The notes under the pieces were generated by a model. It saw only the letters and a program-made list of their open reading frames with translations, had not been told where the DNA came from and made no database searches. Positions 27,827-32,039 of a DNA stretch of 37,782 nt are shown in pieces; the first letter of the stretch is position 1; each line of letters starts with the position of its first letter. The position numbers and the translations under genes are program-made. Source of the stretch: Thermoplasmata archaeon (GTDB taxonomy: Archaea; Thermoplasmatota; Thermoplasmata; Lutacidiplasmatales; UBA184); the NCBI GenBank assembly GCA_021801925.1, contig JAKABH010000010.1, forward strand, positions 1 to 37,782, in the 5' to 3' direction.

Positions 27827-28034
27827 GGGCGAAGCCGAAGAAGACGACGACGGCGACCAGGATCCCGCCGGTGGTGCCGATCGCCGCCCCTTCGAGGCCC
27901 GGGGCCGTCACGTAGTAGAGCATCTCGAAGATCGCCCCCCCGATCGCCGCCGCGGCGACGGCGCCGAAGACGACGAACGGGGAGAGCCCGTGCCGGGCGG
28001 CCACGGGCGGTACGTCGGCGGCCGCCCCGGTCAT
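27804..28034 (-). CDS. Small two-span membrane protein of the oxidase operon
   Basis: A 76-residue protein with two hydrophobic helices (about residues 18-44 and 50-71) and short ends. Its ATG overlaps the oxidase stop (ATGA), so it is almost certainly co-translated with it. By position and topology it could be a small accessory subunit of the heme-copper oxidase, an inference without sequence homology that I can name. Confidence 0.7.
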   Translation of the reverse strand: MTGAAADVPPVAARHGLSPFVVFGAVAAAAIGGAIFEMLYYVTAPGLEGAAIGTTGGILVAVVVFFGFALTAPPNE

Positions 28035-30802
28035 GGCGCCACCCAGAGGACGCCCCAGAGCCCCATGACCATCCCCGTGTCGAGGCCGGTGCCGACTCCG
28101 GATTCGCCGGACGGGTCGTACGAGTAGGCGACCGGCCGCACGAGCCCGTAGAGGTAGACGCCGGTCGTGACGTTCCCCTGGAGCTGCTGGGGGGAGCCGA
28201 TCGTGAGGTTCCCCTGCGTGACCGTCACGAGGCCCTGGGCGGGATCGATCCGGTAGAGGCCGAACGGATCGGGGAGGACGCCGTGGTGGGCGACGACGTA
28301 GGCCTGCTGCGCCGCCGGATCGGTCGACGTCACGTTCACCAGGTAGTTGGTGAGGTCGATCGAGGCGAGCGGGACGGTCCAGGAGATGGCGAGCGGCCCC
28401 GGGGCGGCGGAGAGGGTCGGGCCGGGGACGGAGAAGTTGAAGATCCCCTCGTCCCCCGCCACGAGGTCGGCGGTCGCCGCCGGGACGACGAACGGATCGT
28501 AGATGTTCCCCGCGCCGCCGTCGGACCGGAAGGCCGCGAGGGAGGCGTTCGTCCCGGGGTCGGGCAGGACGATCAGCGCCGAGGCGTCCTGCCCGAACCA
28601 CGGACCGTCATACTCCCCGTCCGGCGCCCCGTAGACCCCCGGCTGGCTCGGCACCTGGAAGAGGGCATGCGACGTCGATCCCGGCACGACCTGCACGTTC
28701 ACCGGGGGGATCGACCGGAACGGGATGTAGATCGATCGGGTCGCCCCGGTGCCCGTGAGATTCAGGTTGAGCCAGCTGCCGGCGTAGGCGACGAAGGCGT
28801 TGTCGAAGGAGCCGTTCACCGCGCCGTGCTCGGAGACGGCCCAGTAGTACTGCTGGCCGGTGACGGTCGCGAACTCGGTCCCCGCCGGCCACGAGGTCGC
28901 CCCGGCGATGCCGTTCGAGACCGCGAACGACCCCGGGGTGTCGAACGCCAGGACGACGACGAGCAGGACGATGACCGAGCCGATCCAGAGCTTCTCCGCG
29001 CGCTCCCGGCGGGCGCGGGAAACGCGGCGGACGAACGGGATGTCCCGGACCGGCCGGCGCGCGGACGGGAACGCCGTCGACTGCGCGGCGGAGCGGACCG
29101 CTTCGTCGAACGAGAGGCCGGCGGCGCTGAAGTGCCGGCCGCGGAAGACCGTGAGGAACCCGTTGAGCACGAAGAACAGCTGCCCGATGAGGATCGTCAC
29201 GATCCCCGCAAAGAGGAGCGTCTGGTCGAGGGTGACCTGGGGGAGGAGCGGGAAGACGATCGCCCGGCGCAGGACCCCGATGGAGCCGAGCTGCTCGAAC
29301 ATCAGCACGATCACGAGCCCGCCGATCGCCGTGAGGGCGAAGTGGATCCGGGTGAGGAGCGGGGAGGCCCAGCGGCGGCCGGTCAGGATCGGGAACGTCG
29401 CGTAGAGGAAGGCGAAGCCGCCGGCGACGATCGCCAGGATGACGATCGCGTGGAAGTGGCTGAGCACGAAGAGGCTGTTGTGGGCGGAGACGTCCCAGGG
29501 GACGGTCGCCAGATCCGGCCCGGAGAGCCCGCCGAAGATCACCCCGCCGAAGCTCAGGAGGGCGAACAGCGAGGCGCCGTTCCACTCCCACTCCCCGGCG
29601 GGGACCCCCTTGACGGTCATCCAGAGGGAGAAGACGGTGATCGCCGACGGGACGATGATCGCGAACGACGCGGCCATCGTGAGCCAGTCGGCGAGCGCGG
29701 GGAGCGGCGTGAGGTAGATGTGGTGGATCCCGAGGAGCGGGGTCAGCACGACGAAGAGGATCCCCGAGACGACGGCGAACCGGTAGCTGTAGACCGGGCG
29801 GCGGGCGAGCAGCGGGACGAGGAAGTAGAGGACGACGAGGGGCAGGAGGAACAGCACATAGACGATCGAGTGCCCGAACATCCAGAAGATCACCTGGTTC
29901 GCGAGCGGGTAGATCGCCCAGCCGGCGTAGGCAGTGCCGATGTCCCAGATCGTGGAGACGAGCAGGGGGACGTAGGTGATCGGGACGAGGACCAGGCCGC
30001 CGACGACGAACCACATGAAGACCGGGAACCGCCGCCACGTCGCCCCGGTCGGGCTGCGCCGCCAGGCGAGCAGGTGGACGGCGAGCCAGCCGGCCCAGAT
30101 CAGGACGGAGGCGGCGAGGGCGAGCCAGCCGAGGAACCAGAGCGGGCTCACGACGTAGGCGCTCTGCCCGTTGACCCCGAGCGGGGAGAGGAAGTACCAC
30201 CCGATCGCCGGGAAGTAGTTGTCGTTGAACGGGGTCAGATAGACCGGCCCCTGGAGGAGGAGCATCGACGCGTTCATGAGCCCGACCGACAGGTAGAGGC
30301 TCCACTTGTGGCGGGGCTGGATCCCGAGGGCGTTGATGGCGAGCAGCCCGAAGACCGCCATCTCGAGCTGCTGGGTCATCCCGAACAGCTCGCGGATCCC
30401 GTGGAGCGTGACGGAGGAGTAGATCTCCTGGTTCGACAGGTGGAGCGCCGAGGCGTCCGCGAAGGCGACGACCTGGGTCTGGAAGCCGAAGGCGTCGAAT
30501 CCGCCGACCGCCCCCCAGAAGACCCCGAGGATCAGCATCAGCATCGTGATGCGGGTCATCCAGTCGCGTTCGAGCAGGAAGACCCGCTCGAAGAGCCGGA
30601 TCTTCGCGAGGCGGCGGCGGATCTCCTCCTCCGTCTGGTCGAGGAAGCGGGTGAGGATCGGCGCCTGCTCGAACGCCGGGCCGATCGGCTCCTGCCCGGG
30701 CTCGTCGATCGACCGCGGCACCGGGCCCGGGGCGGCCATCGGCCCGACAGGGCGGCCGGCCCCCATCTGGGTGCGGTTCGTACTTCCGGACCGGTGGGGC
30801 AC
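28031..30802 (-). CDS. Heme-copper oxygen reductase, subunits I and II fused, without CuA
   Basis: A 923-residue fusion. Residues about 80-550 are subunit I with around 12 helices. Ligands are complete: His134 and His451 (low-spin haem), His449 (high-spin haem), His311 and His360-His361 (CuB), and Tyr315 four residues after His311 for the cross-link. A cytoplasmic linker follows, then a helix (605-620) and a cupredoxin-like subunit II domain outside the membrane. The CuA motif (CxxxCxxxH) is absent; the place reads GEYDGPWFGQDAS, and I find no cysteine anywhere in the protein. Quinol, or a small copper protein docking directly, is the likely donor. The GTG start has a strong TAAGGAGG 12 bp upstream. 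Confidence 0.9.
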   Translation of the reverse strand: MPHRSGSTNRTQMGAGRPVGPMAAPGPVPRSIDEPGQEPIGPAFEQAPILTRFLDQTEEEIRRRLAKIRLFERVFLLERDWMTRITMLMLILGVFWGAVGGFDAFGFQTQVVAFADASALHLSNQEIYSSVTLHGIRELFGMTQQLEMAVFGLLAINALGIQPRHKWSLYLSVGLMNASMLLLQGPVYLTPFNDNYFPAIGWYFLSPLGVNGQSAYVVSPLWFLGWLALAASVLIWAGWLAVHLLAWRRSPTGATWRRFPVFMWFVVGGLVLVPITYVPLLVSTIWDIGTAYAGWAIYPLANQVIFWMFGHSIVYVLFLLPLVVLYFLVPLLARRPVYSYRFAVVSGILFVVLTPLLGIHHIYLTPLPALADWLTMAASFAIIVPSAITVFSLWMTVKGVPAGEWEWNGASLFALLSFGGVIFGGLSGPDLATVPWDVSAHNSLFVLSHFHAIVILAIVAGGFAFLYATFPILTGRRWASPLLTRIHFALTAIGGLVIVLMFEQLGSIGVLRRAIVFPLLPQVTLDQTLLFAGIVTILIGQLFFVLNGFLTVFRGRHFSAAGLSFDEAVRSAAQSTAFPSARRPVRDIPFVRRVSRARRERAEKLWIGSVIVLLVVVLAFDTPGSFAVSNGIAGATSWPAGTEFATVTGQQYYWAVSEHGAVNGSFDNAFVAYAGSWLNLNLTGTGATRSIYIPFRSIPPVNVQVVPGSTSHALFQVPSQPGVYGAPDGEYDGPWFGQDASALIVLPDPGTNASLAAFRSDGGAGNIYDPFVVPAATADLVAGDEGIFNFSVPGPTLSAAPGPLAISWTVPLASIDLTNYLVNVTSTDPAAQQAYVVAHHGVLPDPFGLYRIDPAQGLVTVTQGNLTIGSPQQLQGNVTTGVYLYGLVRPVAYSYDPSGESGVGTGLDTGMVMGLWGVLWVAP

Positions 30803-31751: not shown

Positions 31752-31872
31752 TGCGGGGGGCCGGAGTTTCCGGACGCACGCCGGGGAGTCCGGCGGTCCG
31801 TTTGAACCGGCGAATGCCCTAGGCAACAGGGTCCTAAGCCCTGCCTCGTTGGCCGAGCTGGAGCACCCCCGC
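31752..31872 (-). tRNA. tRNA-Leu(UAG) with a T-loop intron
   Basis: The acceptor stem is GCGGGGG/CCCCCGC with discriminator A and no encoded CCA. The anticodon arm is CAGGG-CTTAGGA-CCCTG, giving anticodon UAG. The long variable arm typical of leucine tRNAs is present (TGCC/GGCA stem). The T-stem halves GCCGG and CCGGC are separated by TTCAAA, a 35-nt insert, and T. Removing the insert restores the standard T-loop TTCAAAT and an 86-nt tRNA. Confidence 0.92.
31766..31800 (-). other. 35-nt intron of tRNA-Leu, position 59/60
   Basis: On the minus strand the insert folds as GGAC/GTCC and CGCCGG/CCGGCG stems. At the exon borders are two 3-nt bulges (AAC and ACT) separated by TTCA/GGAA, which has one A-G mismatch. 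This is a relaxed bulge-helix-bulge, the substrate shape of the archaeal splicing endonuclease. It ends in GAAAC, like the neighbouring intron. Confidence 0.85.
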
Positions 31873-31899: not shown

Positions 31900-32006
31900 T
31901 AGCCCCGGCAGGAGTTTCGGCCCGCGGGTCCATCGGTCCCCGCGGCTTTCGAACCTGCGTCGCGAGATCCAGAGTCTCGCATGATTGGCCACTACACTAC
32001 GGGGCT
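31900..32006 (-). tRNA. tRNA-Gln(CUG) with a T-loop intron
   Basis: The acceptor stem is AGCCCCG/CGGGGCT with discriminator A and no encoded CCA. The anticodon arm CGAGA-CTCTGGA-TCTCG gives CUG, reading CAG. T-stem halves GCAGG and CCTGC are separated by TTCGAA, a 34-nt insert, and T. Splicing restores TTCGAAT and a 73-nt tRNA of very standard archaeal tRNA-Gln sequence. Confidence 0.94.
31914..31947 (-). other. 34-nt intron of tRNA-Gln, position 59/60
   Basis: The minus-strand precursor forms a textbook bulge-helix-bulge. The T-stem is followed by a 3-nt bulge ACT, a 4-bp helix TTCG/CGAA, a 3-nt bulge AAA, and a strong intron stem CCGCGGG/CCCGCGG with a 10-nt loop. Cuts after the second base of each bulge leave exactly a 7-nt T-loop. 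Confidence 0.9.
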
Positions 32007-32032
32007 ACGAACGCTCGCACGGTCGGTCGGTT

Positions 32033-32039
32033 GATAAAC
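32033..32039 (-). promoter_or_regulatory. TATA box of the tRNA-Gln/tRNA-Leu cluster
   Basis: On the minus strand 'gtttatc' lies about 30 bp before the 5' end of tRNA-Gln. No comparable box is found in the 27 bp between the two tRNAs, so both probably share it. Confidence 0.6.

Follow-up and report, generated by a model that had tools for sequence, protein, structure and literature searches.

How a tRNA gene interrupted in the middle of its T-loop can yield a functional tRNA, and which enzyme would have to process it, is the question raised by a tRNA-Leu(UAG) gene in a 37,782-nt stretch of a Thermoplasmata genome (GCA_021801925.1, contig JAKABH010000010.1, positions 1 to 37,782; hereafter the window). 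Between A59 and T60 this gene carries an insert of 35 nt. A first-pass annotation had described the split at 59/60 in a Thermoplasmatota genome, the recovery of a normal T-loop (TTCAAAT) upon removal of the insert and a mismatch in the border helix; all three observations hold. In the joined exons, the 7-bp acceptor stem, the 5-bp T-stem, U8, the variable arm and the T-loop (TTCAAA+T) are intact, and ARAGORN identifies the spliced form as tRNA-Leu(tag), while the unspliced form goes undetected. The borders can be folded into a bulge-helix-bulge (BHB) motif with the outer helix GCCGG/CCGGC and a central helix TTCA/GGAA of three base pairs plus an A57-G mismatch; the precursor fold outperforms those of shuffled sequences (z -2.9). 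Judged from its sequence, the insert is very probably a genuine archaeal BHB intron.

T-loop introns were found in 13 of the approximately 40 tRNA genes of this genome, all of them at 59/60: Leu UAG, Gln CUG, Glu CUC, Asp GUC, Asn GUU, His GUG, Lys UUU, Gly UCC, Ala GGC, Arg UCG, Arg UCU, Ser GCU and Ser GGA. The first-pass annotation had overlooked the adjoining tRNA-Gln and the 11 others. The introns were collected with a general tRNA model and then with a covariance model of T-loop-intron genes (R1), built on an alignment (A2) whose Ala row is one column off near the 3' end; each match was inspected. In addition, the Tyr, Leu UAA and Trp genes each have a canonical anticodon-loop intron, and there are three D-loop introns, present in a Met tRNA (L020, C72:4083-4185) that is probably the initiator and was mis-called Arg by ARAGORN, in Pro UGG (L186, C10:2-112) and in Lys UUU (L185, C75:3035-3174), the last gene thus combining a D-loop and a T-loop intron. 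An uninterrupted gene for any of the 13 anticodons did not turn up in these genome searches. In Archaea, tRNA-Asn, -Asp and -His are normally the sole decoders of their codons, and the cell could therefore not live without excising the introns that interrupt them.

The first-pass annotation had named an intact tRNA-Leu(UAG) elsewhere, together with an untranscribed copy here, as evidence against its reading; BLAST with the spliced 86-mer found no other tRNA-Leu(UAG) in the assembly, a 1.57-Mb draft of 89 contigs that is 94.7% complete. In a draft of this kind an intact copy may be missed, in which case the Leu gene could be a pseudogene or the product of faulty assembly, its codons being decoded by another tRNA. 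We consider this hardly conceivable: apart from the BLAST result and the interruption of the sole-decoder tRNAs, the pair formed by tRNA-Leu and the neighbouring tRNA-Gln(CUG) was found again, with the T-loop intron, in over 20 genomes that had been assembled separately, the exons being conserved and the introns variable. For tRNA-Gln (22 sequences), identity amounts to 99.4% in the exons and 55% in the introns, within which the motif bases G2, C28, C29 and G30 are invariant.

The pairing of the exon with the intron was followed in a wider sample of 167 distinct T-loop introns with the same insertion point. Already among the first ten introns of this genome, which precede any intron model (nine were obtained with the general tRNA model, and the Leu intron of the window was given), G57 faces C in four of four cases and A57 in none of six. 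In the wider sample the corresponding counts are 75/82 and 0/85; A57 is opposed by G (57 introns), U (24) or A (4), and C56 lies opposite G in all 167. The first pair of the inner helix is formed in 148 of 159 introns, against a background of 43%, with both sides changing (G-C 87, C-G 44, T-A 9). In-silico splicing gave back tRNA calls by ARAGORN in 130 of the 132 single-intron genes tested. Without splicing, ARAGORN missed 75 of these 132 and gave others wrong 3' halves, and the annotated tRNA sets of these archaea, which are abundant in acid soils, are therefore probably incomplete.

Natural empty sites are found as well. In one relative (genome G143) the tRNA-Leu(UAG) gene (L174) has an uninterrupted T-loop TTCGAAT, and in 21 other relatives this tRNA is interrupted by an intron in the D-loop as well as by one in the T-loop. 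The Leu gene of the window is the mirror image of the G143 gene, having kept the T-loop intron and lacking the one in the D-loop (GGCCAA↓CGAG; here and below, arrows mark the insertion point), and its empty D-loop site is exactly the border predicted by the BHB (GGCC/GGCC) in 21/21 relatives. The existence of intron-free orthologues such as L174 speaks against the idea that the insert is kept in the mature RNA, which would then be a tRNA with an extended T-arm. The insert does fold as a stable hairpin; however, its retention would cost a third of the tRNA set the contact between T-loop and D-loop, and it is the splice-site bulges and the central helix that are conserved and not the interior of the hairpin. 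We regard retention as very improbable.

With respect to the motif, the first-pass annotation had proposed a relaxed BHB. This stands insofar as one position of the Leu central helix is irregular, but the relaxation is smaller than was proposed, since the two 3-nt bulges and the inner helix are all in place and the central helix reaches its full 4 bp in tRNAs with G57. Among the 167 introns, 64 conform to the strict BHB and 22 are near-strict, these 86 including most of the G57 motifs; 65, the Leu intron of the window among them, combine an inner helix with one irregular central-helix position, mostly A57-G; nine have an irregular inner helix, and seven introns of 13–17 nt offer no space for one. 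A full 4-bp central helix is formed in 101/167. A57-G is thus the commonest A57 state and not a decayed exception.

Several points weigh against reading these inserts as spliced BHB introns. The covariation counts stem from related sequences and are not phylogenetically independent, and R1 includes the central helix, so that later detections are biased to paired cases. The Leu central helix carries its mismatch, the seven shortest introns have no room for an inner helix, and the alpha2 enzymes of Euryarchaeota are said to cut only canonical BHBs (PMC4033280, PMC6379350). By all sequence tests available, the T-loop introns are nevertheless real, conserved and functional; that they are spliced we infer from these tests.

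The introns are inherited throughout the family of the window (Ca. Lutacidiplasmatales/UBA184, phylum Thermoplasmatota). All 46 family genomes listed have 6–10 class-I matches each (E<=1e-8); the zero-match genomes listed include none from the family, 54 further zero-match genomes lying outside the list. Matches are fewer in other families of the same order and class. An initial restriction of T-loop introns to the window's family was dropped, as near-threshold matches elsewhere proved to be real introns when the sequences were read. Sequence-checked T-loop introns now come from 19 families, comprising that of the window, the two others sampled in its order, 12 more of the class and four that belong to the phylum but not to the class. 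Only intron-free matches or none were obtained among the sampled sequences of families f15, f19, f27 and f30. In one genome of a sister family (G062, f3; L190, L193, L200 and L212), the T-loop introns measure only 13–14 nt, for example GCTATGTTGAAAA, with no space for an inner helix, and the same tRNA often has a second intron elsewhere. The combination of D-loop and T-loop intron in tRNA-Lys(UUU) recurs in distant families of the class (L231 in G198, L199 in G061), which suggests that this pair is old.

Which endonuclease, then, would remove these introns? The genome contains one endA gene (contig C12, L001:718-1779), encoding 354 aa with two PF01974 units, and nearly all relatives likewise have one endA with two units per genome. 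The named relatives of the gene are Thermoplasmata metagenome-assembled genomes, including UBA184 and AcS/SubAcS genomes. In an alignment with Archaeoglobus fulgidus EndA, whose residues Y246, H257, K287 and R280 (PMC12397907) were placed in the sequence by reading of the alignment, the C-terminal unit alone has the catalytic triad; Tyr, His, Lys and the bulge-binding Arg are conserved. The site of the crenarchaea-specific loop (CSL) was located via the CSL-carrying chimera 3p1y. At this site our EndA reads YGSPIGHRLELS, a 12-residue loop of the same length as in the narrow-specificity A. fulgidus enzyme, whose counterpart is YGSEKGDLVTLS; all relatives whose sequences were read share this loop length. 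An insertion of the length of the CSL or of the ARMAN-specific loop (ASL; ARMAN, archaeal Richmond Mine acidophilic nanoorganisms) is absent from the aligned EndA proteins of about 80 relatives and from the structural model of our EndA. This AlphaFold2 monomer model (predicted local distance difference test score, pLDDT, 93.9) has a tight hairpin at the CSL site. Its fold is matched best by the fused EndA of Methanopyrus kandleri and the alpha'2 enzyme of A. fulgidus (5x89, 2gjw) and less well by ARMAN 4fz2. With a single two-unit EndA in the genome, a heteromeric CSL-carrying enzyme does not fit, and neither does an epsilon2 enzyme of the ARMAN type, as there are two PF01974 units rather than three and no ARMAN-specific loop. 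By units, residues, loop length and predicted fold, we classify this EndA, as the first-pass annotation had proposed to do, as an alpha'2 type without CSL or ASL; the unusual splicing endonuclease suspected there was not borne out.

The loop at the CSL position (residues 211-222, alignment A5; EndA loci L078-L152) often contains an Arg in the family (YGSRxGxRLELS) and a Lys in other families of the class (YGKxxG); our EndA has Pro at the first place. Going by these sequences, it is possible that the Arg or Lys serves as a small substitute for the CSL/ASL lysine.

The A57-G mismatches and the introns of 13–17 nt are relaxed motifs, and they might call for a broad-specificity endonuclease, either through an undetected second subunit or through an unrecognised specificity feature of EndA. 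Its N-terminal unit is longer (354 aa in total versus 289–305 in Thermoplasma and Archaeoglobus), and its best fold match is the constrained-broad M. kandleri enzyme, both of which leave room for adaptation. On the other hand, nearly all relatives have a single endA, insertions of CSL or ASL length are missing from the relatives and the model alike, and most G57 motifs are strict or near-strict. Moreover, one group reported homodimeric enzymes able to cut motifs resembling a bulge-helix-loop (BHL) as well (PMC8707768), so that an ordinary alpha'2 enzyme may suffice for the T-loop introns and an unusual one would not be needed; for A. fulgidus EndA, cleavage of a BHL at 37/38 is described in a full-length precursor (PMC6379350). 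We therefore consider the need for a broad enzyme unlikely.

Our proposal for processing by the alpha'2 enzyme is as follows. Once transcribed, the precursor would use the T-stem as outer helix, while the central helix would arise from pairing of the invariant loop bases TTCR (54-57) with YGAA or RGAA close to the intron's 3' end, and A58-A59-N and N-N-T60 would be left as the two 3-nt bulges. Cleavage in both bulges would fall to the predicted alpha'2 EndA homodimer, and joining of the exons to RtcB, for which the genome has one gene. As TTC can pair with the GAA of any intron, one intron design would fit nearly any tRNA. The 13 tRNAs would have their intron exactly at 59/60 because every tRNA offers TTCRAA↓T between two stem halves. 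This leads to the wider proposal that TTCRAA↓T is a reusable landing site in the Thermoplasmatota, BHB introns being copied from tRNA to tRNA and cut by a loop-less alpha'2 EndA, including the A57-G and the 13–17 nt helix-loop forms; the chances that this is correct appear to us evenly balanced. A hint at copying between tRNA genes, as in Thermoproteales, comes from genome G265, in which the T-loop introns of tRNA-Glu (L337, 38 nt) and tRNA-Asp (L338, 36 nt) are almost the same in sequence (z 7.8 versus shuffles). If the landing-site proposal is true, neither CSL nor ASL is required for the evolution of non-canonical introns. As to why the introns are there at all, they might conceivably shield tRNA genes from integrases.

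The features of the locus are compiled in Table 1. The tRNA-Gln gene has the same direction as tRNA-Leu and lies 27 nt upstream of it, and the position of a TATA-like box suggests that both are on one shared transcript. In the ARAGORN annotation of tRNA-Gln (31933-32007, minus strand), the 3' half is wrong and extends into the T-loop intron; the gene actually occupies 31900-32006. The longest reading of a metallophosphoesterase open reading frame (PF00149; 30823-31779, minus strand) overlaps the 3' end of tRNA-Leu, and translation probably starts further downstream. An open frame of 923 aa (28034-30802, minus strand) begins with cytochrome/quinol oxidase subunit I (PF00115) in its N-terminal part and continues with a long additional C-terminal stretch.

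Table 1. Elements of the tRNA-Leu/tRNA-Gln locus (window coordinates)
Feature	Position	Strand	Basis
tRNA-Leu(UAG), whole gene	31872..31752	-	Read directly and re-derived by script
tRNA-Leu 5' exon, positions 1-59, class II with variable arm	31801..31872	-	Sequence, ARAGORN, covariance model R1 match at 31752-31872
T-loop intron at 59/60, 35 nt, CGGACCGCCGGACTCCCCGGCGTGCGTCCGGAAAC	31766..31800	-	Sequence reading
tRNA-Leu 3' exon: T60, 3' strands of T-stem and acceptor stem, discriminator A	31752..31765	-	
BHB central helix, exon strand TTCA (54-57); partner GGAA 31768-31771	31803..31806	-	
BHB central helix, intron strand GGAA	31768..31771	-	
5' bulge AA↓C (A58, A59, intron base 1); predicted 5' splice site 31801/31800	31800..31802	-	Predicted position, from BHB rule
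3' bulge AC↓T (last two intron bases, T60); predicted 3' splice site 31766/31765	31765..31767	-	Predicted position, from BHB rule
Inner helix of intron, GGAC/GTCC, then CGCCGG/CCGGCG	31772..31799	-	
tRNA-Gln(CUG), likewise split at 59/60	31900..32006	-	R1 match (95.4 bits) and sequence reading
tRNA-Gln T-loop intron, 34 nt; central helix TTCG/CGAA, 4 bp	31914..31947	-	
TATA-like box TTTATC, 27-32 nt upstream of tRNA-Gln	32033..32038	-	Sequence; putative function

Reviews describe the introns of Euryarchaeota with alpha2 or alpha4 enzymes as few and canonical, and they reserve broad specificity for the (alpha beta)2 and epsilon2 types (PMC4090602, PMC4033280, PMC6379350). Non-canonical introns have been called almost exclusively crenarchaeal (PMC3218864), with Korarchaeum as the only alpha2 exception, which has a specific loop (PMC4033280). 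The position 59/60 is already known (PMC4090602). In the literature searched, which did not extend to GtRNAdb, supplementary tables or subscription journals, we found no report of non-canonical tRNA introns in Thermoplasmatota, and the word "intron" is absent from the Lutacidiplasmatales genome paper, which used tRNAscan-SE 2.0 in archaeal mode. The T-loop introns described here are thus new in lineage and enzyme context and known in kind. They represent a phylum-scale counter-example to the coupling of non-canonical introns with looped or heteromeric endonucleases and, at the same time, a natural test: either this coupling has been drawn too strongly, or the loop-less alpha'2 enzyme hides a new way of accepting relaxed motifs.

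Among the known systems, Thermoplasma and Ferroplasma share the phylum and the alpha'2 EndA (2OHC; PMC8707768), but the T. acidophilum enzyme has 289 aa and is listed as narrow. Family f19, presumably the Thermoplasmatales, has an EndA frame of similar size (292 aa) and no T-loop matches. Korarchaeum likewise combines an alpha2 EndA with non-canonical introns, yet its proposed specific loop (PMC4033280) is absent from our EndA. M. kandleri, whose EndA is the closest solved structure, is a euryarchaeal host, a thermophilic methanogen, with a non-anticodon intron and an EndA without CSL or ASL (PMC6379350, PMC3695527); however, this enzyme is of the (alpha beta)2 type, and the unusual introns are reported from the D-loop of two tRNA-Glu genes, whereas here the T-loop of many isotypes is affected. 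The Asgard Atabeyarchaeia and Freyarchaeia are also wetland-soil archaea with many non-canonical tRNA introns, but they belong to another phylum and have introns in 92–95% of their tRNA genes at mixed positions, with no T-loop preference described (PMC11291895). In Thermoproteales (Pyrobaculum and relatives), as in the genome studied here, BHB introns lie outside the anticodon loop, including at 59/60; a genome has several of them, a single gene occasionally two, and similar introns are common to different tRNAs (PMC4090602). In contrast to these crenarchaeal cases, the host here belongs to the Thermoplasmatota, its EndA is an alpha'2 type without CSL, and 59/60 is the dominant site.
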